From Phorcus lineatus (lineage: Eukaryota; Mollusca; Gastropoda; Trochida; Trochidae), in contig OV121086.1 in assembly GCA_921293015.1 (NCBI GenBank), positions 39,121,194 to 39,185,193 on the forward strand: a stretch of DNA of 64,000 bases, read 5' to 3'. Shown here in pieces: positions 100-61,465 of this stretch (the stretch's first letter is position 1; each line of letters opens with the position of its first letter). The notes below the pieces were generated by a model. That model was not told the DNA's origin, searched no databases, and saw only the letters and a program-made list of their open reading frames with translations. Made by a program: the position numbers and the translations under genes.

Positions 100-3000
100 C
101 TACAGAGCGAGGTCAATAGTGACCCCTTCGGACTTCAAAGTAAATTTCTCTTCTTGGATGACAAGGCCATCCTTAATCACTGAAAGAGAATAATAACCCT
201 TAAAACCACGTATACGAGTGGTTCCGGTTTTAAGAGGAAGCGTAACGTCTGTCTGCCATTCTCGTTTTACCAGTTCTTGCCATCGCAAGCCAGCAGCATT
301 CGGCTGAAAAAAGAAAATAATTACGATGTCATCGTTGTTCTGTTATGAACAACTAGTAACACACAAGTGAAAGACTAAGGAAACTAATTGTGGGCCTATA
401 GCAAGACGATATTTGAAACTCAATACAGAATTGTATTGGTTCATACCTGGTTCAACAAAGGATGAGGATTTACAAGAGAATTTAGAGAAATCATATATAA
501 TTTTTGTGTGTCTACCAATCAAAACGTGTCAGTGGAGCGTTAAGTCAGCCGTTGACCATGCATGACAAAGTGTCACTACTATTGCTAAGTCATTGCATTG
601 TGCCTTCGTGTTAACATTGTTAATATGACTGACCTGGACACACCTACATATTTGCGTGACCTCAGTGGTTAAATTCATGAGAACTAAGCACAGTAACAAC
701 ACTATTGATGTCGCAGTGGGAGAGGGGTTTGGGGTGTTGGTAAAAAGCCGTTGGTACATTAACAGTGAGTGAATCCCTTCCATGAAGAAGGCTTCAATCA
801 TTACACAATTATGACCTACCAATGCAATATTTTGGTAATACAGGGGAATCGTAGTATTCGTTCTGGAAAAGGACCAAACGTATGTGCCACCAACTATCAG
901 AAAAAATATGCTGACAAGAAAATTGCTTTATAAAGTTATTTGCCCAAAAGGGAACATCGGTTTGAATTTAGCTTGGTAGAGAAGTGTAATATTTTTATTA
1001 TCCCTTTAAAACGTACCTTGGCACTCAGACCAGCGGTGAGGGCAGCATGTGGTGATGATGAGTCGATATCTGAGACACATCCGTATATAAATCCCTCAAC
1101 CGATGGATGGCTGAAGAATACCCTCATGACGTCATCCAATATGGCCGCCTTCAGGTCGTCGTCGCTTGCGTCAACGCAAAACTCGGTTATCCAGAGAGGT
1201 AACCCGACAGACGCTAGCTCTTCCAGACGAAACTAAAATATTGAAAAACTGACATAAGTCTTTACTTTTCCAGTTGAAAGTTGCGATTTGAATATATAAG
1301 ATAAACAGAATAAATAGCATAACGCTTTTTAAGGTTAAGTGAGAGTATTATGATTATGGCGGTATAAAATATTATCACATCTAGTGAACAAAAACCCTAC
1401 TTAGATAACTTTAAAGCAATTTTCATACTTTGTGATTATGGCTATTAGCACTGAATTTACATAAATAAATATTCAACTTCTTCATTCTATGGGGTCTATT
1501 TAATATCAGGCAACATTGAAATTAAGTGCGATTCCCTTTCCATCATTTTTGAATTTTCTCATTTTCCGCCTCTAAAATACCACTCAAACTGTAGTCATTT
1601 GTGTTGCTGTTTACTAATATACTAATTATTAACTCTGAACAACCTTAATTAGAGTGAGGTCGACAGCCTGGTTTAAGTGTCCTTTTATTCCAAGTCCATG
1701 TATGGAAACTGAGTCTGTGTCCTTATAAAGTTGTCCCAGGCTACGGTAGGCCTACAAACATCAATCAGTAGATGTAAACCTAATAATAAGTTCTTGAAAT
1801 AAATAAGTATGTATAATTTATTAAGAATTGAATGAAAATGAAAGAGAAGACTGTAATCAGGGTTTTTTGAGTTTGTAATATTTTTGTATATGTATTCTTA
1901 CCAAGGTATATATATTGATAACATATTGAAGCATGAGTATTGACAGCTCAACTCAATTGACTACCCTTGTCTAACAACTAAATTTTTTTTCTATCATGTT
2001 TCTCACTGATATCGCTTCAAATTCGTTTTTCATTTGCTAAACATTTTGATTTAACTCATATAAGTCATTTGTTATTCCCTTTAAACAGAAAACCGTAAAA
2101 ATCACCTTGTTGAATTTCACCTTTTAGATGTACCGCGCTCTAGAGTTAAAAACTGTGGGATTCTTTAACAATACAACTATTCTCATATCCTTTTACACCC
2201 AATTAATGTTTGTATTTTATCATATGGACACACATTTCACATGAAAGGCGCTTCATCAATTACTGGCATCTACTAATATAAGGGTTTAATTCAAACCTGC
2301 GTCATATATCCACTGCTTACAACGTCATAATCGTTCAGAAAGAGTTTCAAGTCAGGATTTTGCGCTGTTACCCATCTGAATATATCCATAGTCACATTTG
2401 TTCTGCCTGTCTTCTCTTCAAATAGGTGCGAGTGCAAAGTTTCACTATTCGTATCCCAGAAAGCAATCCTTGAAACCAAAATTGAACAATATATTTATCA
2501 ATAATATTTTCACGCTTTCTTTTAATTCAGTTTTAGGATGATAGCGGTTGTTTGTTAAAGTTTAACATAAGAAATGCCCCAGAGGCAATCTAAAAGGTGT
2601 TATGTGAAGATAACGTTTTGGTAAAAATTAACTCAGAGTTAGAGTACTACAAATTTTGATACTAAGGATGTTATCGCTGATACGTTATTAAATATTTAGA
2701 TTCTCATGATCACGGTTACAGTTTTTGTTTGAATTAGTCCAATCTATAATTCAAAATTATTATATTCTTTTGAATAAAATAGACACAACTGTAAAGAATT
2801 GTATATGTAACTTGATTTTTAAAAATCAGTTTTATGTAGCTATACGTTAATTCTCATCAAAATCTCACGTAATCTAATCTTGTTAAAACGTTGACATTTA
2901 CATTCCTAATCAAATTGTCAACAAACCTATTGTCTGTTATTGCCATGATGTCGACTACACGTTTCTCCATAGCTTCTATCAAAGCTTCATTTCGTAAGGA

Positions 3001-4671
3001 GTTGACCCATAACGGTGATCGTTTCTTATCTTCCGAAAACAAACTGAGGCCAAACACTTTAATACTGAAACAGAAAATATATATCATTAAGTATTAAATT
3101 AAAAGTAATAAAAGTTATATCTGCATTTTCGAGGTCATAATCTTGACAAATATGAATGCCATAGTTACGAATACACATGCATACTTACCCAGAATCATCT
3201 AGCACATCCAGGAGTTCTCTAACTTTGTCGTAATTGAGACTTCCCTAAAACATATACATGAATAATCAAAACCCAAACTACAGTTTGATAGTAGACATTC
3301 ATAAAGCTCTAATCTGTACCAAACAATGAAGGCAGTAACAAAACTTTTAGCTGTTACTTGGGAGTATGAACAGTATATCTAGGCTTAATTTCATGACGAA
3401 GTTTTACTCGATGAAATATTAGAAACATTTGCTTCTCTTATTACTCAGGTCTATATATGATGTATCAAGCAAACTAAAAATAAAATAATCTATATTACTC
3501 CATATTACACGCCGCCTCGTACAAAAAACAAACACATCCAAAACCACACACCAACACATGGCCATGTGGCGTGTTGACACTAGCTACACGATCTTTTGGG
3601 ACAAACGTTTGACTCTTTCACGGAGAGACGAGATCTAAGAGACTTAAGAGAGTCTTTTTAATAAACTTTTTAATAGTAACTTGCTGTCAGCTGGATTGGT
3701 TCTGCGAATGTTTTCAGCAGAGCAGTTGAAGATGACAGGAGTTCCAGTATACTTCTAGTCTAGTCAAAATGATGTTCCAAAAGAATGGCAGCACAGAATT
3801 AAAAATACTCAAAATACAGCTCGTTATACATACAAGAGATTTCCTACTGATGACATAACCGCATTTGTCATTGAGATGCACCAAGGACATAAGTGAAAAG
3901 TTTAAAAAGGTCCAAACTGATTAATAATTTAGATTATTATGAATTCGAAATGCACAAATATCGACGGTAAGGGGGATACAACCCTTTTTGTTTGATTCAT
4001 GTATGCTAATGCACGTTAATAAAACTTTTTAAGTTTGAAGCCGGCATTTGTGATTTGTTATCTAAACCGTTAGTCCTCTTCTCTAGCCCCATTTTTTATT
4101 GTCGTTTTTTTAATTACACGGTGGCCCCTGTTGTTCGCGATCAGGATGTTCAGGTAAATCAACAGACGCTTTTTTCACGATGGACCCAAAAACTTAAAAC
4201 CATTAACCTCGTTAATGGACACGAAGATGGAATAGTTTAGAAATTGAAGTTAAGGAAACATATCTCACTCCATTTGTTCTAGGCAGAACCTGGCACTTTT
4301 CGAATGTCACACCAAAATTGATCTTCTTGATTGGGAACACGTAAATGCATTTTGCAAATCTGCTAAAGACATCTTGGCGAGCATGTAAAACATATTTCCG
4401 AAATTACTGTGTAACAACCAACGGCAGCCTTAATTGGCAGTGGTGCCTTAGTGCCATGGAGATGATTATTAGAATTCGACATAACTTTGTTTGAAAAAAT
4501 AATGACATTTACCTGTTTTGGTTCATTTTCCACCCACTGCAGATCGCTTACCAACGTTGCCCACTCAAAGTTGTCATAAAAGAAATCTTGGTATGCCTGA
4601 TATTTGCTGTCTGATATCATGTTGAAGTCTGTTGCTCCACCAAAAGCAAACTGACTTGTTTCTTGGTGAAT
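100..4671 (-). other. Exons 6-12 of the GH10 gene: catalytic barrel
   Basis: Order of recognisable GH10 blocks: QFAFGGATDF and FEWATLVSDLQWVENEPKQG (exons 6-7), VFGLSLFSED (exon 8, the usual RGHxLxW block), AFWDTNSETL (exon 9, acid/base E348), LFLNDYDVV (exon 9), GLGIKGHL (exon 10, the usual GxQSH block), LPLWITEF (exon 11, nucleophile E449), SHPSVEGFIYGCVSD (exon 11, the usual LWGFWD block), PNAAGLRWQELV (exon 12). Exon 10 contains no ATG-started ORF and was found from its acceptor (TTTGTAG), its phase and its protein motif. The barrel is full length with no stop or frameshift, so this is not a broken gene even though its active site is unusual. Confidence 0.85.
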
Positions 4672-7600
4672 CTAGTAATTAAACAATCAGTTACCAATTG
4701 TTGAGTAAACAGTAATACAAATATCCCATGAGAATAACACTCTCTGAAATCACCGAAACTTACATCGTACATTAGGACAGCCTTCAATGGAGTTAATCAT
4801 CATAAAACTTTCGAATTTTAGATTTAAATTTGTTGACAAGTTTTATACTGAAGATTACTGGGAGTATCTATAATTACTTCAAATGTTAAAATCAAATGGG
4901 ATAGGATACTTCAGCTATTATTTATCAATTAAGTGGTCAAGTAGCTACAAGTTTGATAAATTTTGGAATCGGTATCTCTTTATATACTTATTAGGATAGC
5001 ATTGGGTTGACAGGAAAAAGGATACCCGACTGTTTTAACGTCCATCCAACTACCGACCAGGTTTTACCCGATCATTAATTTGGAGTCGATTGATTTGATG
5101 CAACCAACCTGGCTGCATTATGTTCTACCAGGAGTGCCAGAATTACCAGAATGGTTCTATAGTATATACAGTATGTATATTGATGGTGAAAGTCATTGTT
5201 TTACCTTAACCGTGACTCCTTCTGGATCCCCGGAAGCTACACTGCAAAATGTGATAAACGATTACTCAATTCACATATATCTGACGGGAATTTTGATAAA
5301 TTTGGATTGAATTAGCTTTTCCATAATTTTTAAGACTCTATTTTGATAAGAAGTTATATATTAAGGAATGTGACATGACATGGCGTCATTTATAATTAAC
5401 ATAAATAGATTAGGACGACCCAATAGAGAATCAAGTAATTAGAAGTTATAGCCAAGGAGAGGATGGATTTAAACTGGATACAATTATGTTCACTAAATAA
5501 AAATAGTTAATACGACGTAATCTCATCTAATTATTTTGTGTGAACCTTTCCAAATACTCCGCTGAATTGTTTTCAAGATCATAAATAGTAAATCTTTATA
5601 TACATGTATGATGATAAAAAATCCAGACATTTCGTCAAGAGAAGCAAGCATAATTTGACTTCAACAAAGGTTATATATAATGAATACCAGCCTCCTTGAT
5701 TTATCATATATCACTTTAACCTGTTGCAAATACTTACTGATGTAAAAGTAATGTAGACATATAGCCCAATGTATGAAAAGAGAATAGACTTGAAACTACA
5801 CAGTATAAAAAGGAGGATATTTACGCAGGTTTCAGCAAGATCTGGCTCAGAGACGTTTATCCTCACGTAGTATTCTCACACGATCGACACTGTCACTTAC
5901 AGAATGTCTGCCAGTGATTAACGATGTCATACTAACTAGCCTTATAGACTCGTGAATGATTAAGTATCAAACTGCCTTTGATGCCAACTCATTAACTGGA
6001 TTTCATGAAATATACATATAGTTCGTTTGTATCAAATATGGATACTTTTTATCAGATGCTTTTGTCTGTACCAAATAGGTCTGTTTGAAACCAAAATCGA
6101 ATGATAAGGTTAAAACCGTAGGATGTATTGTTCCCTCAATATGAATACTTTACTTGATATGAATGTCCGCCTTGCGGATTCGGTCTATCTCCCTGTTAGC
6201 CGCCTGTGCCCAGTTCCAGGGAAGAGGGGTCAGCTCTCTGAGGTCAGTTGTGTCCAGTAGGTAATTGACCTCTTCACTATCTACCAGGATGTACACTCGA
6301 ATGACGTCGTATCCTGTTGATAGCATGAAAAGAAACAAATGTCTATTATTTTTTGGTACTATGAATCTCCTCAGGTGAAGATACGAGTACATTTATATAG
6401 TGTTTATTTTTTTGAACGAGATATGTTAAGCATTTTTATATAATATAGCAAAAACAAGAAGTGTCTTGTTGTCCCTTTTATTTACAGAACATATAACAAA
6501 CAATATACAAACCTCCTTCGAATATTAATGTAAAATATACGACAATGAATGTTGGTCGTTCTTTTAGTGTTTTTCTTAAAAATAAAATTCCACCATTATT
6601 ATCAGATTCTTTTCTTATCTTCAATATTTAATGTCAAACAAGAAATTACAATTTCAAAAATGATTTTACACATGCTTAAAATGGCCTTCAATATCTACAT
6701 GTACATGTATCATAATGGTATGTTGTTACAGACAACATATTTCCTTTAGCGGATATCAATCCCTTAATTCCCTGAAATCTAATATATATTATAAAATGGA
6801 AATCGAGTTTACTGTACAAATCTGACATGCAAAACGATATCAAAGATATAATGTTATCAAAGAACTGATTGGTGGTGGAGATTTTCATTGAAACGATTAA
6901 TGATTATAAATATGTATTTGGTCTTTCAAGATGATTTTTTGGTCTTTCAATTCATGTTGGCATTTATGTTAAATGACGAGCACCAATGGTCGAATAAAAA
7001 GTCAGTTACAGAATGCCTCTTCAAACGTTTTCTACGTCGGTCGGGAATCAAAACTTCCGTCTTCCAAACAAATAGCAAATAACTTACCAATTAGAATACT
7101 AGTTAGCATCTCACCTAAATGAACGGTGAAATCAGCGCCTATTCTCTGCCATATATGTGGCTGCATGAAACGAGTTGTGCCTTCTTTGGAATAGGTTGTG
7201 TGACCTTCAAAAACATTATGATATATATAGAAAGTAAAATCTAAGTATATCTAAACTCTAGAAAAACCCTTAATAAGACTCTTTACTGTGCATTTATCAT
7301 TCTAATTGTTATATCGTGATTTTTCCAAACATTTAATGGTCCATATGCAATGAATGTATGCTAAATATGCAACTAAGAAAAGCAAAGGATGCATCACATG
7401 GTTAATTGATATGTTTTTTTTATACATGTGCAGTTTTAAACGGAAGCATATTTCCCTTTCAGTTGAATCATACATTTGAGAACCTGAATGATTCTTATTG
7501 CTTACCATTTTTTGTTTTCTGGTACTTCAGCATTACGGTCACTTCGGCTGTTGCTTTACCGATTGGCGTATTCAAAAGCTTGATATACGCAGAGAACGCG

Positions 7601-8226
7601 TAGTTTTTACCCTCCTCCAAGGGGACATCTTGACCAAGTCCAGAATATTTGTTCACTCTAAGAAATGAAGTGGCTAATTATTGTTAAATGACTTGCATCT
7701 GATAGCTGAATGCAAGTGTTGTTATTGGCGAAATACTTCTTCTCTTTTCACTGAAGTCACAGATTCATGTACTGAATATCATACAAGTCTCTTTTCCGAA
7801 ACATGTTAGATAACGAAGCGGTTGACAAATTCTTAGTAACCAAGCACTATGCCTACATCTAGATTTACACAGATTTCTGAGCTGCGTTTTTGATAGTACA
7901 CACTGTTTTGATGTATCTCTTACGGGTGTACTTTCAATAATGCCGAGATAAGACTTTAATTAATTAATACAACAAGTATTAGGAACAATTCTTTAACTTT
8001 ACCTGTGAGTTACGAGGGCACTATAGGTTCCAGTGTGGCGATCTGTACTTAGTGACACTTCGGAGTTTGAAGCATAAATATCCCATTTGTTCCATCCTTT
8101 CTGGTTTGAGAAAGTGTCCTCTTCTAGACCGCTGTTGGTAAGCAGATTGCCGTGGCAGCTGCATTTCACTTGACCAACCAGCAGAAACAGCAGCAGTAGA
8201 AACGTTACCATGAACATTCTGGACAT
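100..8226 (-). CDS. GH10 (xylanase-like) secreted protein with N-terminal carbohydrate-binding module, 12 exons
   Basis: Spliced gene read from high to low coordinates. Exons: 8226-8003, 7657-7506, 7204-7115, 6313-6154, 5861-5825, 4671-4513, 3244-3189, 3064-2927, 2468-2297, 1751-1644, 1232-1017, 303-100 (stop TAG at 102-100). All introns are GT-AG, all phases agree, and the total is 1716 nt, or 571 aa. Residues 1-22 form a signal peptide (hydrophobic run LLLLFLLVG). A CBM4/9-like domain follows (about 25-185), then a linker and a GH10 barrel (about 222-525), then a C-terminal beta segment after the NAAGLRWQELV motif. Known family role: retaining endo-1,4-beta-xylanase or cellulase acting on plant or algal polysaccharide, secreted from gut tissue in molluscs. 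Both catalytic Glu are present (E348, E449), but many subsite residues are changed, so activity is doubtful. The architecture is clear; intron 4 has a weak acceptor and exon 3 has two possible donors. Confidence 0.9.
6154..8226 (-). other. Exons 1-4 of the GH10 gene: signal peptide and CBM4/9-like module
   Basis: Exon 1 starts at the ATG at 8226-8224 and carries the signal peptide, then the NLLTNSGLEEDTF and GWNKW segments typical of the start of a CBM4/9 module preceding an animal GH10 domain. Exon 2 gives the beta strands around LEEGKNYAFSAYIKLL. Exon 3 gives WQRIGADFTVHLG. Exon 4 gives VIRVYILV and NYLLDTTDLREL, the closing strands and the usual entry into the GH10 domain (ANREIDRIRKADIHIK). 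Exon 3 has two good donors 27 nt apart and in phase (GT at 7114-7113 or at 7087-7086). The shorter form gives the loop length I expect between ADF and VIRVYI, so it is used in the model. Confidence 0.8.
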
Positions 8227-12459: not shown

Positions 12460-12594
<135 letters not shown>

Positions 12595-23835: not shown

Positions 23836-25000
23836 AGTTAATAACGAGTGACGCTTGAGAAAGGTGAACCTGCAAAGGACTAATGAAATAAGGAAAACCT
23901 TCTTTTGAAACAAGCGAATGGAATCAATTTATTTCCTCTTAATTTTGGAAATTGTTTAAAATCTATACGTAAATTTACATGAATAGTTTAGAAATAATAC
24001 GAAGTTAAAGGTAAAAAGATAACATGTAATACTACTACATTACTATAACACCCTACAATTATGCACTTACATGATTTCCTAAAATCCCCAGAAAGGTAAA
24101 AGGATGTTGTCATGAGCTTCAATAAAGTATTCACTTTTCACTAATAGTTTAATTCTTCATGTGAGGACACCTACTAGGAATGCACATTCATATAAGGGAC
24201 ACATAGTATATACTAGTTCTAAAAGTATACATTTGATTTTAATTTTATGATGTATCAACTCATTGCGACAACAAACTCTTCGAATTTGCATGCCGTTTAA
24301 ATTATGAACACATATCTAATTGATATATGAATTCACACTGCCAAATATAATACAAAATTATGTAGGTAATATGAACCTACACCCTATGAGTCAGGTTACA
24401 TTGTCTGCACTGACGTGTTGCAGAGACATCCAAAACATAACATAGTAACAAAGCTAACAGTCAAGGTATCCGCTGGGGATACTTTTCATATAGATTTTTT
24501 ATCAGGGCCGAGAAACTGGTTAAGGTTATAAGTCAAGGTAATCTGAGTTTATTCCTTGTTCATTCCACTTATACGTGTCACATTCCCGAGGGGTTATATT
24601 TTATAGAGGAGACTTCAACAGAAACAGGAAAGAAAACTTTTGATCTGAAGGAATTTGGACAATCAAGCTCATTTTGCTTAGTATTGGTCCCCGCTCTCTA
24701 CCAGACATTGAGGTATCCTTAATCAACAGTTTTGTTTGCATTTTGAGTATAATCGATTCCCCGAAGAACCTTACTGTTGGTTCGCACTGTATATCAATAG
24801 ATTATATATAGGGAAAGGCACACAAGAGGAAAGTCAAACAAGAATTATAACTATAAAAATAGTCTTTCAAATGATGAAGATCAGTAAAAAATAAATAACC
24901 TTAAGATTGATATTGACTGGAAGAAGACTTATTTTCAGTTATCATTTTTGATAGACAAAAGGGTGTTATCCATATTCATTTTTGGTAAGTTTTTAGACAA
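23836..25000. other. Intergenic, one exon-like segment
   Basis: An open plus-strand segment, 24607-24712, follows a pyrimidine-rich acceptor (TTATATTTTATAG) and ends TTGAG before GTATCC. It encodes 34 complete residues with no recognised family. Otherwise nothing was seen. Confidence 0.3.
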
Positions 25001-25090
25001 TTATTATTATTATTATCATCATCATCATCATCATCATCATTATTATTATTATTATTATTATAATTATTATTATTATTATTATTATTATTA
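25001..25090. repeat. (TTA)n/(TCA)n compound microsatellite
   Basis: Trinucleotide run TTA, then TCA, then TTA again. On the minus strand it gives a false Asn/Asp homopolymer frame. Confidence 0.97.
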
Positions 25091-51395: not shown

Positions 51396-51456
51396 GGTAC
51401 TCATTGGTACTCATTGGTACTCATTGGTACTCATTGGTACTCATTGGTACTCATTG
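51396..51456. repeat. 10-bp tandem repeat (GGTACTCATT)x6
   Basis: Six perfect consecutive copies of GGTACTCATT, without variation. Confidence 0.97.
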
Positions 51457-57282: not shown

Positions 57283-58758
57283 TTATTTTCGATTCCTTGT
57301 TTCAAGTAGAAACTCTTTCTTATCATTAGCATCTACAACAGTTCTGGAATGCTTTCTGATTGGTCCACGTGACAGGATGTAGAGAAGAGGACACAGTGCA
57401 ACCTGGGTATACGTCAACCAGGCAGATAGAGTTACAAATACTGAAGCAATGTTCCCGGTTTTATCAAACATTCGCCAAAACGCAAGCACAATATAGGGGA
57501 ACCACAACGAACAGAAAACACACGTTACCACAAAGAATAATCTGGTCAGATGTTCGTTTTTCACTGTGTGAAGATTAACCACTCTACCAAAGTTTGGTCG
57601 CACCTGCATTCGTAATGGATTTAAAGCCGGGTTGGCGCCAAATCCATTCATCACATTTACCAATGCTTGGCCGTTGGCTCCCGGTCCAAAGAATGTCCAG
57701 TTTGAGCTACGAGCCGGCTGATGCTCAAGTGGTCTCATTTTACGATGTCGTCGTAAAAACGAGAAGACTCGGAAGTAGAGGAAGACGGATACAAAGACAA
57801 TGAGTGAGAAAACTAGCACAAAACCCAAAGTATCATTTGCCTTGTAGTATTTGTGATGAAACGTGCACTGACTCTCATCAGCTATAAACACATATGTCCC
57901 TATTCCCACCACAGGAGGGAAAGACATCGCAAATGCTATAGTCCATCCTACCACAACCACAATAAGATTCACGAGTCCCCGAGATCGTCGTTTATAGATT
58001 TTGGAATACACAATTGAAAAATGTCTGTCTATCGCAATGGCAAGCACTGCTGCAGATGAGCTATATATAAAAAACGAGTTTGCAAAAGCAAAGAGTTTGC
58101 AGGCTGAAGATCCGTACTTCCAAACTGACCCTTGCAAAACAGTCATCAGCACAAGTGGCACACAAAACACAGCTCTGGATAAGTCAGAGACGCACAGACT
58201 CAAAAGATAGTAAAACGGAGGTCGATGAAGATTCCCTTCTTTCACGATTGTATATATGATGAACCCATTGCCTGATACTCCTGACAGTGATATAAGGACA
58301 AGAGACACTGTTTTAAGAAGCAATGCGACTAACGATGCACCTTCCTGGCTATCTGTAGTTGTCACAAACGATATGATTGTCGTCACAGTTGTCATAATGT
58401 CTAGTACTGGCTTGGTCTGATTGTACTCCAAAAGAATAGATTGATTGTTTACGTCCGGAAACGCACTGGTAAAGTAACTGTCCACGGTTGAAGGTAAGTC
58501 AAATAATTGAGTAGATTCACTCAGGTTAGATGGTGAGAGTGTATCTGAAGGCAAGAAATTTGACATATTATATTCCATTGTAGAATTGTCCACCGATATC
58601 GATGCACTTATATTGACAACTTCTGGGTTCCATTCCAACGTGTCATTTGATAAATCCCCATAGTCCAGCAGGTCGTAGTCTGTGGCATTAACAGTCATAT
58701 TGCTACCCCAAGCCATGCTACTCTTAAAAGTATCGCTGAATGCTAGCTTTGTATTCAT
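57283..58758 (-). CDS. SREB-family orphan G-protein-coupled receptor (GPR27/GPR85/GPR173-like)
   Basis: 491 aa in one exon, ATG 58758, TAA 57285-57283; an in-frame TAG lies 12 codons upstream of the ATG. Class A seven-transmembrane receptor of the plasma membrane: TM1 about 145-172 (N164), TM2 181-207 (D192), TM3 217-249, TM4 262-284, TM5 308-333, TM6 404-428 (W419, P421), TM7 434-463. C220 and C298 can form the usual disulfide. SREB signatures: HRPPFYYLLSLCVSDLSRA, GTYVFI with QCTFHHKYYKANDTLGF, RRHRKMRPL and NWTFFGPGANGQA in loop 3. The vertebrate SREB receptors are conserved brain receptors without an agreed ligand. Unusual: the ~145-residue N-terminus with nine N-glycosylation sequons (vertebrate members have short ones), DRH in place of DRY, and CPLLY in place of NPxxY. 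Confidence 0.92.
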   Translation of the reverse strand: MNTKLAFSDTFKSSMAWGSNMTVNATDYDLLDYGDLSNDTLEWNPEVVNISASISVDNSTMEYNMSNFLPSDTLSPSNLSESTQLFDLPSTVDSYFTSAFPDVNNQSILLEYNQTKPVLDIMTTVTTIISFVTTTDSQEGASLVALLLKTVSLVLISLSGVSGNGFIIYTIVKEGNLHRPPFYYLLSLCVSDLSRAVFCVPLVLMTVLQGSVWKYGSSACKLFAFANSFFIYSSSAAVLAIAIDRHFSIVYSKIYKRRSRGLVNLIVVVVGWTIAFAMSFPPVVGIGTYVFIADESQCTFHHKYYKANDTLGFVLVFSLIVFVSVFLYFRVFSFLRRHRKMRPLEHQPARSSNWTFFGPGANGQALVNVMNGFGANPALNPLRMQVRPNFGRVVNLHTVKNEHLTRLFFVVTCVFCSLWFPYIVLAFWRMFDKTGNIASVFVTLSAWLTYTQVALCPLLYILSRGPIRKHSRTVVDANDKKEFLLETRNRK

Positions 58759-60814
58759 TGAGTTAGCAGCGACGGAATGCTTTGATCGCTATTCCTAGGG
58801 GATGTATTGCGAACATTTGACAAACTGGCAGTCATTTTCACAACAAAAGCGTTTGATGGACGTTTTGTACGCTATTTATAACAGCAACAGATGCCTTTCT
58901 CGTCATGTATTAGCATAGAATCCTTCTGAACTTGTTTCACTTAATCCTTAAATCACCATTTCGTTCGTCTGCGACACTGAAGGACTTTTATCATCCGGAA
59001 AAGCACAGTTACTGCGATATCGATCCAAATAATTTGCTGAAGTGTAGCAGAAAATTAATAATAACTTGAAGTCACACTAATCGCGTTAGGTTCTTAACCA
59101 AGCCATCATCTTTCGTGTGCAGATAATCCTTGAGGAATTCATGTCCTGGAGGTGAAGCTAAAAGAAAACAGTTAACGCTGAAGAAACGCTTCAAGGGTTT
59201 AACACGCAGGCTGAAGTCCTTGGGGAAGAAAATCTTACACTTCTACAGCACGAGTAGTTCCTGTATCTAATTCTCCCGGGTATCCTTTCTCGTAGTAGAG
59301 TGGAATAAAAACAATTGACGTAAGCCTCGTTCCACTAAAACACGCCTTCGGTTTTTGCTGAGAGCAGTAGAGTTCGTGTAAAGAGGAAAGACAAGATGAA
59401 TAACAATGCATGGAAACACGCGTCGAGACTTTGCTATGGGCACTAAACTTATCTTTATGTTTTACCCAAAGCAAACATCGAACATAACAACTCTGACACG
59501 GCTGGCTCCTTCACAGCACTGAGACGTGCTTTTGTGTTATGGCACAAAAAAACCTGCCGTTCACACAAGTTGTCCTTCAATTTGAATAGCAAATTGACGT
59601 TATTGATGGAGAGATAACATAATATTCTTCATTATGTTATGGATTCTTTGTCGTATCTGCCCTAAACGAAAGAGGTCTCTATTGTTTACTGTGTGTCGCC
59701 GAAAAAAATCAATAAATAGGGACAGTTTAGCAGCTATGAATAATAACCGTCACCTGATAGAAAAGTAGCTGTGCACGGTGTTACAGCGCTATCAGACATG
59801 TACCGCAAACACGCTATTGACATAGTGTACACCAGCCGACTGTACGGCTAAAATCTGGATATGTTGTCAGGAGAGTATGAGCAGGCTAATGAACGCCATG
59901 AAATATTCAAGACGTAGCTTCTCTATGATGCATGTTATGCGAACTAGGTAATTTGGTCGACCGATGAATGACAGCATGTTGTTTGATACCACTTAAGGGC
60001 ATGTACGTTCAAGTCAAAGCGGAGTCTGATAATTGCAATCATAAATATTTAACCAGCTTTTATGCTTGCAGCATCAAACATAGCAACAGTAAAAGCAAGG
60101 TCCTGTTGGGGAACATCAATGTCCTTAAGCAAGGTCAATCAAACTTGTTTCCCATCTTTTTAATATTGGATTCTAGTTCTTGGGTATTTTCGAAGGCGTA
60201 TATGCAATATTTCGTTATGTTTGTTATAATATACGGCAAACAGGAGTTTGTTATAAGTTGAATTGTTTTTGTCAATGATAATTTGATTCGATGTAGACTG
60301 AAGTCAGTGTCGTTTAAATCTTGCCTTCATTTACTATCCATCCTGCCACAATTTGTTGCCAGAAATTCAGTATATTATTCCGAATTTCTAACCAATGGGA
60401 AATGAAGGCCGTATCATGAACCAAATGTTATCGCTCAATTACAAAGCCAAATACTTCCTTAACTGAAAACACAGTCGTTAAAGTGTTGTTAAAGTGATTT
60501 TAAAGGATGCTTGGGGCTTTAGAATCTGTCCAATATGTTGGAAATCTTCGTCTGAGTGTTTCAACGACTGATTCCGGTCTTAATAACGACTCTCAACTGT
60601 TTACTTGTCCGTGACTTTGTCGTTCATTATTGAAGCGGTGCCAATTCACAAGTCTGCGGTGACACTGAAATATAAAGGGAAAGTCTATTAACAACATGAA
60701 AATAAAGTAGAAAGATGCAGAAAATGATTATTCATTAAAAAATAGGTATACCGTCTTTCAAAATCAAAATCGGTGAAAATATTCTACAAGATGGCTAATT
60801 TGATGACTTGAAAT
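58759..60814. other. Upstream region of the receptor gene, no gene recognised
   Basis: Probably holds the 5' UTR and promoter of the minus-strand receptor, but no TATA box or UTR exon boundary can be fixed. The 79-codon minus-strand frame at 59474-59235 has no recognisable family. Confidence 0.45.
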
Positions 60815-61073
60815 AAATCATCAATGGACATTGTAACGATACATCATCAATGGACATTGTAACCATAAATCATCAATGGACATTGTAACCAAACATCATC
60901 AATGGACATGGTAACCATACATCATCAATGGACATTGTAATCATAAATCATCAATGGACATTGTAACCATAAATCATCAATGGACATTGTAACGATACAT
61001 CATCAATGGACATTGTAACCATAAATCATCAATGGACATTGTAACCATACATTTGTACATCATCAATGGACAT
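60815..61073. repeat. 26-bp minisatellite, about 10 copies
   Basis: Unit CATCAATGGACATTGTAACC plus ATAAAT, with copies starting near 60819, 60844, 60871, 60897, 60922, 60949, 60975, 61001, 61027 and 61061. Spacing is regular at about 26 bp except for the last, which follows an 8-bp insertion. Units differ by a few substitutions (CGATACAT, CATAAAT or CAAACAT at the junction). Confidence 0.95.
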
Positions 61074-61339: not shown

Positions 61340-61465
61340 TCAGCTATGTATAACATTACATGTGCATGATAAAGCTATCTCAATGTATAACATTACATGA
61401 TAAAGCTATTTCAATGTATAACATTACACGATAAAGCTATATCAATGTATATAATTACATTATAC
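61340..61465. repeat. About 31-bp tandem repeat, 4 copies
   Basis: Unit TCAATGTATAACATTACATG followed by ATAAAGCTAT(T). The first copy has a 4-nt insertion and the last is diverged. Confidence 0.85.

Follow-up and report, generated by a model that had tools for sequence, protein, structure and literature searches.

Can an animal protein that belongs to family GH10 by sequence and keeps both catalytic glutamates still be taken for a xylanase when most of the residues around them have been replaced? The question is raised by a gene at the start of a 64,000-nucleotide stretch of the Phorcus lineatus genome (the window; C11:39121194-39185193), which an earlier note had described as encoding a GH10 protein stripped of most substrate-binding residues. 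When rebuilt from the DNA, the gene was found to lie on the minus strand (window 8226..100) and to have 12 exons separated by 11 GT-AG introns, with all splice sites canonical, and to encode a product of 571 aa without internal stop (Table 1), which bears out the intact frame and clean splicing reported earlier. The span assigned in that note (100-4671) corresponds to exons 6-12 only, exons 1-5 with the signal-like stretch, the CBM4_9 module and the linker being located at 8226-5825.

Table 1. Exons of the window gene, with positions in the window; active-site residues are given as canonical (XlnA/Cex number) to window protein.
Exon	Positions (strand)	Content	Basis
1	8003..8226 (-)	Start codon, signal-peptide-like N-terminus; CBM4_9 begins	PF02018 at 35-164
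2	7506..7657 (-)	CBM4_9	Gene model and PF02018
3	7115..7204 (-)	CBM4_9	Gene model and PF02018
4	6154..6313 (-)	CBM4_9 ends; linker (NWAQAANREIDRIRKADI) begins	Alignment with Bacillus xylanase 7d88 extends over the linker
5	5825..5861 (-)	Short exon, linker	Gene model
6	4513..4671 (-)	GH10 begins; E43/N44/K47 to V262/S263/Q266	Gene model and alignment
7	3189..3244 (-)	GH10	Gene model
8	2927..3064 (-)	GH10; H80/W84 to L299/S303; Arg of RGH to F297	Alignment
9	2297..2468 (-)	GH10; N126 to S347; acid/base E348 and N384-D385-Y386 kept	Alignment
10	1644..1751 (-)	GH10; Q203 to K419; H421 kept	Alignment
11	1017..1232 (-)	GH10; nucleophile E449 kept; D235 to C451; WGFW to G483-C484-V485-S486; W274 to S491	
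12	100..303 (-)	C-terminal domain (505-571) and stop codon	Region aligns in 7d88 and paralogues

The window gene model was read from genomic DNA alone, and wrongly joined exons that hide the canonical residues, the fault named beforehand as able to overturn the claim, would be one explanation of the altered motifs. We find this barely credible. The 19 residues checked (those of the earlier note except Y482, plus 384-386, 451, 483-486 and 491) each lie inside their exons, at least 16 nt from the edges and with homologous sequence flanking both sides; F297, which is outside this set, is closer to the start of exon 8. A tblastn search of the window with six paralogue proteins revealed no extra GH10-like exon that could restore canonical residues, matches outside the gene having E values of 0.028 or weaker, and the models of two paralogues, C15 and C39_a, obtained with the window protein as query, also comprise 12 exons, most of which match those of the window gene in length or nearly so. 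Every residue position given earlier (V262, S263, Q266, L299, S303, S347, E348, K419, H421, E449 and Y482) proved correct in the rebuilt model.

The protein begins with a hydrophobic signal-like stretch, so that secretion is predicted as judged from hydrophobicity only. Profile searches place it in both expected families, with CBM_4_9 (PF02018) matching residues 35-164 at 55.4 bits (cut-off 25.9) and GH10 (PF00331) matching residues 228-487 at 70.1 bits (cut-off 22.1), and the structure 7d88, a Bacillus safensis-type xylanase, aligns to residues 189-562 with an E value of 1.5e-47 and 31% identity.

We then compared the window protein with the GH10 family of its own genome (957.8 Mb, 74 contigs). 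A profile search, counted exon by exon, yielded at least 15 GH10 matches, in a tandem array on contig C7 and in copies on C1, C15 and C39; the window gene is absent from these matches, so the list is not exhaustive, and other stripped GH10 copies may exist in the same genome. Besides the window gene, the genome contains no fewer than 12 GH10 genes or gene parts, which were modelled (C15, seven C7 copies, C39_a, C39_b, C39_c and a partial C1) with a purpose-written spliced protein-to-DNA aligner that, as a control, recovered the window gene exactly. Among these models, C39_c is incomplete on both sides, the acid/base exon is the first that could be located for C1, and the 5' exons are doubtful in several C7 models, most of all in C7_6. 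Core identity to the window protein is highest for C39_a (152/345, 0.44) and C39_c (122/278, 0.44), followed by C15 (0.38), C39_b (0.37), C7_3 (0.33) and Bacillus safensis (0.30). In the 20 kb of C11 beyond the window start, no GH10 exon was detected at E 0.05; a mosaic resembling the changed motifs, produced by a permissive aligner as a possible tandem neighbour copy on C11, was rejected when sensitive tblastn gave a best E of 1.7. Searches beyond the genome returned 62 pattern matches but no relative among viral contigs, and 53 pattern matches at seven loci, all Bacillus, in a genome-contig collection; one of these loci (L007, a fragment) was unused, six (L001-L006) entered a panel of distant GH10s and only L005 the main alignment. 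Eight of 15 plasmid matches were taken, L010, L011 and L012 for the distant panel only and the split gene L015 for no alignment.

The main alignment set the window protein against 19 rows (12 paralogues or parts, five prokaryotic sequences and two PDB entries). The 12 positions that we take to form the active site follow the numbering of S. lividans XlnA/Cex; a literature search for them found nothing. At 11 of them the paralogue consensus reads E43, N44, K47, H80, W84, N126, E127, Q203, H205, E233 and W266, whereas the window protein has V, S, Q, L, S, S, E, K, H, E and G respectively. Both catalytic glutamates (E348 and E449) are thus present, as are H421 and the Asn of LNDY, all four as previously claimed. 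The Glu, Asn and Lys of subsite -2 are replaced (V262, S263 and Q266), as are His80, Trp84 and Gln203 of subsite -1 and the cleft residues Trp266 and Trp274 (L299, S303, K419, G483 and S491), these being residues that make the sugar contacts of the two subsites in GH10 enzymes. The Asn that directly precedes the acid/base in clan GH-A is S347 in the window protein but Asn in all 19 other rows. Across the 12 paralogues or parts the motif residues are canonical with few exceptions, the lone departure from the 11-position consensus being Ser for N44 in C7_1 (the C1 model omits the first five positions).

Some details of the earlier description had to be revised. The subsite tryptophans are indeed lost, but Y482, which had been read as one of their replacements, aligns with the Leu or Phe preceding the first of them; a gapless alignment of 18 residues against 18 sets G483 opposite W266, and S486 opposite the last Trp of the WGFW motif. 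Likewise, L299 and S303 do replace the His and Trp of the GHxLxWH block, but its final His is not canonical in this subfamily (the residue after W84 is G, D, E or S in the paralogues and E in Bacillus safensis) and so does not count as a loss. Two further positions are less strictly kept: that of W274 is Ser in C15 and C7_2 and Ala in C39_b, and that of D235, two residues after the nucleophile, is C451 in the window protein and Thr in C15. Changes missing from the earlier description are C451, the C484/V485/S486 replacements in WGFW and F297 in place of an invariant Arg; no paralogue row of the alignment has Cys at the C451 or C484 position.

Could the window protein nonetheless remain an ordinary xylanase of family GH10, able to cut xylan despite its unusual residues? 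Its PF00331 score lies above the cut-off, both catalytic Glu are kept, and some variation at these sites is also seen among distant GH10 relatives with a xylanase annotation (Runella is without the Glu-Asn and Lys, and in two haloarchaeal copies the acid/base is His). Against this, the 12 paralogues or parts in the genome and Bacillus safensis each differ at two of the compared sites at most, D235 and W274 included. We therefore consider an ordinary xylanase quite unlikely, and the motif losses strongly imply that the window protein is no longer a classical one.

The losses are concentrated in the active site beyond what chance would give. Among 67 columns invariant in 11 paralogues (full-region copies; C1 left out), the window protein keeps three of 10 in the active site and 50 of 57 elsewhere (Fisher p = 3.4e-4), and with seven lineages (C1 and Bacillus included) the counts are 3/11 and 41/49 (p = 5.3e-4); neither the columns nor the rows are independent of one another and the active-site set was assumed, so these p-values serve only as guides. 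The same 3/11 and 41/49 were obtained with nine rows (Streptomyces, 3wub and 1i1w included) and one mismatch allowed. When one lineage was taken at a time, the window protein kept 3/11 active-site and 42/50 other invariants, whereas all six other test lineages retained every active-site invariant: C39_a (11/11 and 49/50), C39_b (11/11 and 49/57), C15 (11/11 and 49/54), C7_3 (11/11 and 49/58), Bacillus (11/11 and 49/57) and the partial C1 (6/6 and 38/38). C7_1, with its Ser for N44, was not among these lineages, the badly modelled C39_b exon was left unmasked, and Vibrio, Halorussus and Runella entered no invariant count, the latter two departing from the motif themselves. Moreover, four of the seven other columns lost in the first count belong to WGFW (484, 485 and 486) or RGH (297), so few losses fall outside the cleft.

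A decaying gene, caught as a young pseudogene before its first stops, would be expected to have a long branch, and in the protein tree the window gene, which groups beside C39_a and C39_c with support 83, does have one (0.88 substitutions per site, where its two sister genes have 0.37 and 0.50). For this tree, Streptomyces, Vibrio and the two PDB rows were left out and the bad C39_b exon was masked; support for deep branches was near 50. A codon model slightly preferred a position just outside all three C39 genes (lnL -6955.7 versus -6957.5). In the placements tried, the window gene falls among canonical genes, which by parsimony assigns the losses to its own branch.

Decay is nevertheless highly improbable. 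The dN/dS estimate that the earlier note had proposed was made with a purpose-written codon model on seven genes (C7_3 alone from the C7 array, one bad C39_b exon masked) and gave an omega of 0.056 on the window branch (0.04-0.06 over set-ups) versus 0.12 elsewhere, a value that is itself soft given the saturation of synonymous sites on these branches. A common omega for the window branch and the others was not rejected (p = 0.21), whereas omega = 1 on the window branch was (2dlnL = 28.1, p = 1e-7), and neutrality was also rejected without the active-site columns (p = 4e-7) and under two alternative placements (p = 9e-7 and 9e-8), making four of four model set-ups (p < 1e-6). In simulations of neutral change, sequences with 8/11 of their residues replaced had acquired 22 stops on average and never fewer than nine in 200 runs, and those with 12% replaced had a mean of four, with no stop in only two of 200 runs. 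Because the window branch includes time before the losses, omega does not date them, and it is the selective-loss test that carries the argument: the active site has been dismantled while the framework and the binding module have been kept, which speaks against decay. The earlier judgement that this is not a dead gene is thus upheld by the intact 12-exon frame, by other invariants kept about as well (42/50) as in four full paralogues (49/58 to 49/50) and by an omega far below 1.

What, then, does the protein do? On the sequence evidence, the stripped GH10 copy probably now has another job, such as sugar binding. Of the alternatives offered in the earlier note (pseudoenzyme, lectin-like protein or enzyme with a new substrate), the data lean towards a secreted, lectin-like, carbohydrate-binding pseudo-hydrolase built on a disarmed hydrolase, to which we give about even odds (roughly 0.5), although the survival of both Glu leaves room for an enzyme with a new substrate. 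The lean comes from the unequal fate of the two domains. The PF00331 score of the window protein (70 bits) is about half of those of C39_a (148) and C15 (151), whereas its CBM_4_9 score (55) exceeds theirs (48 and 39). Measured against C39_a, conservation of the CBM is no lower than that of the GH10 core (identity 0.487 versus 0.423), the sole pair of six in which the CBM is ahead: in the other five, which include those of the window protein with C15 and with C7_3, the order is reversed, and in the three that join canonical paralogues the GH10 lead is 0.12-0.13. Bootstrapping of the CBM minus GH10 difference for the window protein and C39_a gave an interval that includes zero (-0.04 to 0.16), so that the difference is not significant alone and, given also the GH10-led C15 and C7_3 pairs, counts as supporting evidence only.

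Such a protein could have arisen by duplication inside the GH10 family of its own genome, giving a secreted CBM4_9-GH10 protein in which xylanase/cellulase function would have been lost: the sugar-gripping residues of subsites -1 and -2 have been replaced, while the other barrel invariants, the CBM and the C-terminal domain are conserved under purifying selection. The CBM, and perhaps the altered cleft too, would then hold a glycan without cutting it efficiently, and K419, which has replaced a Gln close to the two catalytic glutamates, may pair with the carboxylate of one of them and so silence it.

Running counter to a pseudo-hydrolase is the retention of both Glu, of H421 and of N384-D385-Y386. 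Random survival of three of the 10 invariant active-site positions would include both Glu with P = 8/120 = 0.067, so catalysis may still be selected. With the two glutamates and H421 in place, a serious rival is an enzyme acting on a new substrate, as a hydrolase or a transglycosidase, in which these residues would still do retaining chemistry and subsites -1 and -2 would have been rebuilt for another sugar. Purifying selection on the window branch is consistent with such an enzyme, as is the fact that some replacement residues are not inert (K419, Q266, C451 and C484); the Asn before the acid/base contacts the sugar 2-OH in GH10 enzymes, and its loss would fit a different contact. However, nearly all -1/-2 contacts have gone together, including this Asn and all three cleft tryptophans, and the Asp two residues after the nucleophile has become Cys, so that we regard a new-substrate enzyme as possible at well below even odds. 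More tentatively still, the GH10 barrel might now serve as another kind of catalyst or as a gated sensor of glycans, with a rebuilt pocket for a sugar that no known GH10 accepts; the C451-C484 cysteine pair may then bridge the barrel mouth, with the lysine near the Glu pair and H421.

Among known systems, the GH18 chi-lectins are hydrolase-derived non-enzymes that are secreted and keep the fold and the binding cleft but have lost the catalytic acid. The favoured pseudo-hydrolase resembles them in secretion and fold, and glycan binding would be expected of both, but the window protein has taken the opposite route, keeping both acids and losing cleft residues, so that the loss of the catalytic acid that marks a chi-lectin is not found here. 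No GH10 pseudoenzyme appeared in the excerpts of open-licence literature that our search returned, the matches being bifunctional enzymes and chitinases. The closest comparison comes from the same genome: C39_a (G000:C39:15426241-15418512) resembles the window gene in its 12-exon plan and has CBM4_9, linker, GH10 and C-terminal region in the same order, yet it and the partial C39_c, the two paralogues nearest in core identity, have canonical active-site residues. Similarly, 7d88 has the linker and C-terminal region around the barrel as in the window protein but a canonical active site, and BsXyn10, 89% identical to 7d88, is described as a xylanase active in assay (PMC9221164). Animal GH10 genes reportedly make up one clade, likely inherited vertically (PMC6011409); GH10 is enriched in a mussel digestive gland (PMC5549309), transcribed in that of the shipworm (PMC5840672) and expanded in apple snails (Ampullariidae; PMC13336756). 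These proteins belong to the same family as the window protein but are discussed as biomass-degrading or digestive, with no active-site loss mentioned in the available portions of those reports. Tandem expansion of GH10 is also present in P. lineatus (the C7 array), where 12 canonical genes or parts and one constrained, stripped copy in a single genome allow loss and gain of function to be compared side by side, and where a GH10 label together with both catalytic glutamates is seen to be insufficient to call an animal protein a xylanase.

Alignment of the GH10 paralogues revealed substitutions in two gene copies of the array on contig C7 of the window's own genome, with Ser in place of the subsite −2 Asn in C7_1 and Ser at the W274 position in C7_2. 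Among the plasmid-borne relatives, the haloarchaeal proteins of Halorussus vallis and Halocatena marina both have the acid/base Glu replaced by His in the alignment (WDMHNHP and WDVINHP respectively), and the nucleophile Glu is present in both. At the Haliscomenobacter hydrossis locus, where the first CDS is truncated by the locus edge, the two CDS are perhaps a single GH10 gene broken in two.

Features in the window and at GH10 loci elsewhere (five tandem arrays of the window are given, from 12 rows reported)
Feature	Location	Details
Rhodopsin-class GPCR	window 57286-58788 (-)	single open frame; PF00001, E 2.3e-40
Seven canonical GH10 genes	G000:C7:31704511-31835580 (L031-L044)	tandem array; closely related to each other
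GH10, annotated endo-1,4-beta-xylanase	L008 700-2775	Halorussus vallis plasmid
GH10, annotated endo-1,4-beta-xylanase	L010 1306-2772	Halocatena marina plasmid
Two CDS, both annotated endo-1,4-beta-xylanase	L015 1-1222, 1405-1992	Haliscomenobacter hydrossis plasmid pHALHY03; same strand, adjacent
Tandem array	window 12462-12594	ACT x44
Tandem array	window 25000-25090	ATT x30
Tandem array	window 51396-51456	10-bp unit x6, perfect
Tandem array	window 60813-61049	26-bp unit x9
Tandem array	window 61346-61464	31-bp unit x3

The window also carries an intronless GPCR gene, of 501 aa from stop to stop, whose product has a long N-terminus rich in Asn, Ser and Thr and whose top solved relatives are aminergic receptors, such as dopamine D3 (E 1.6e-17).
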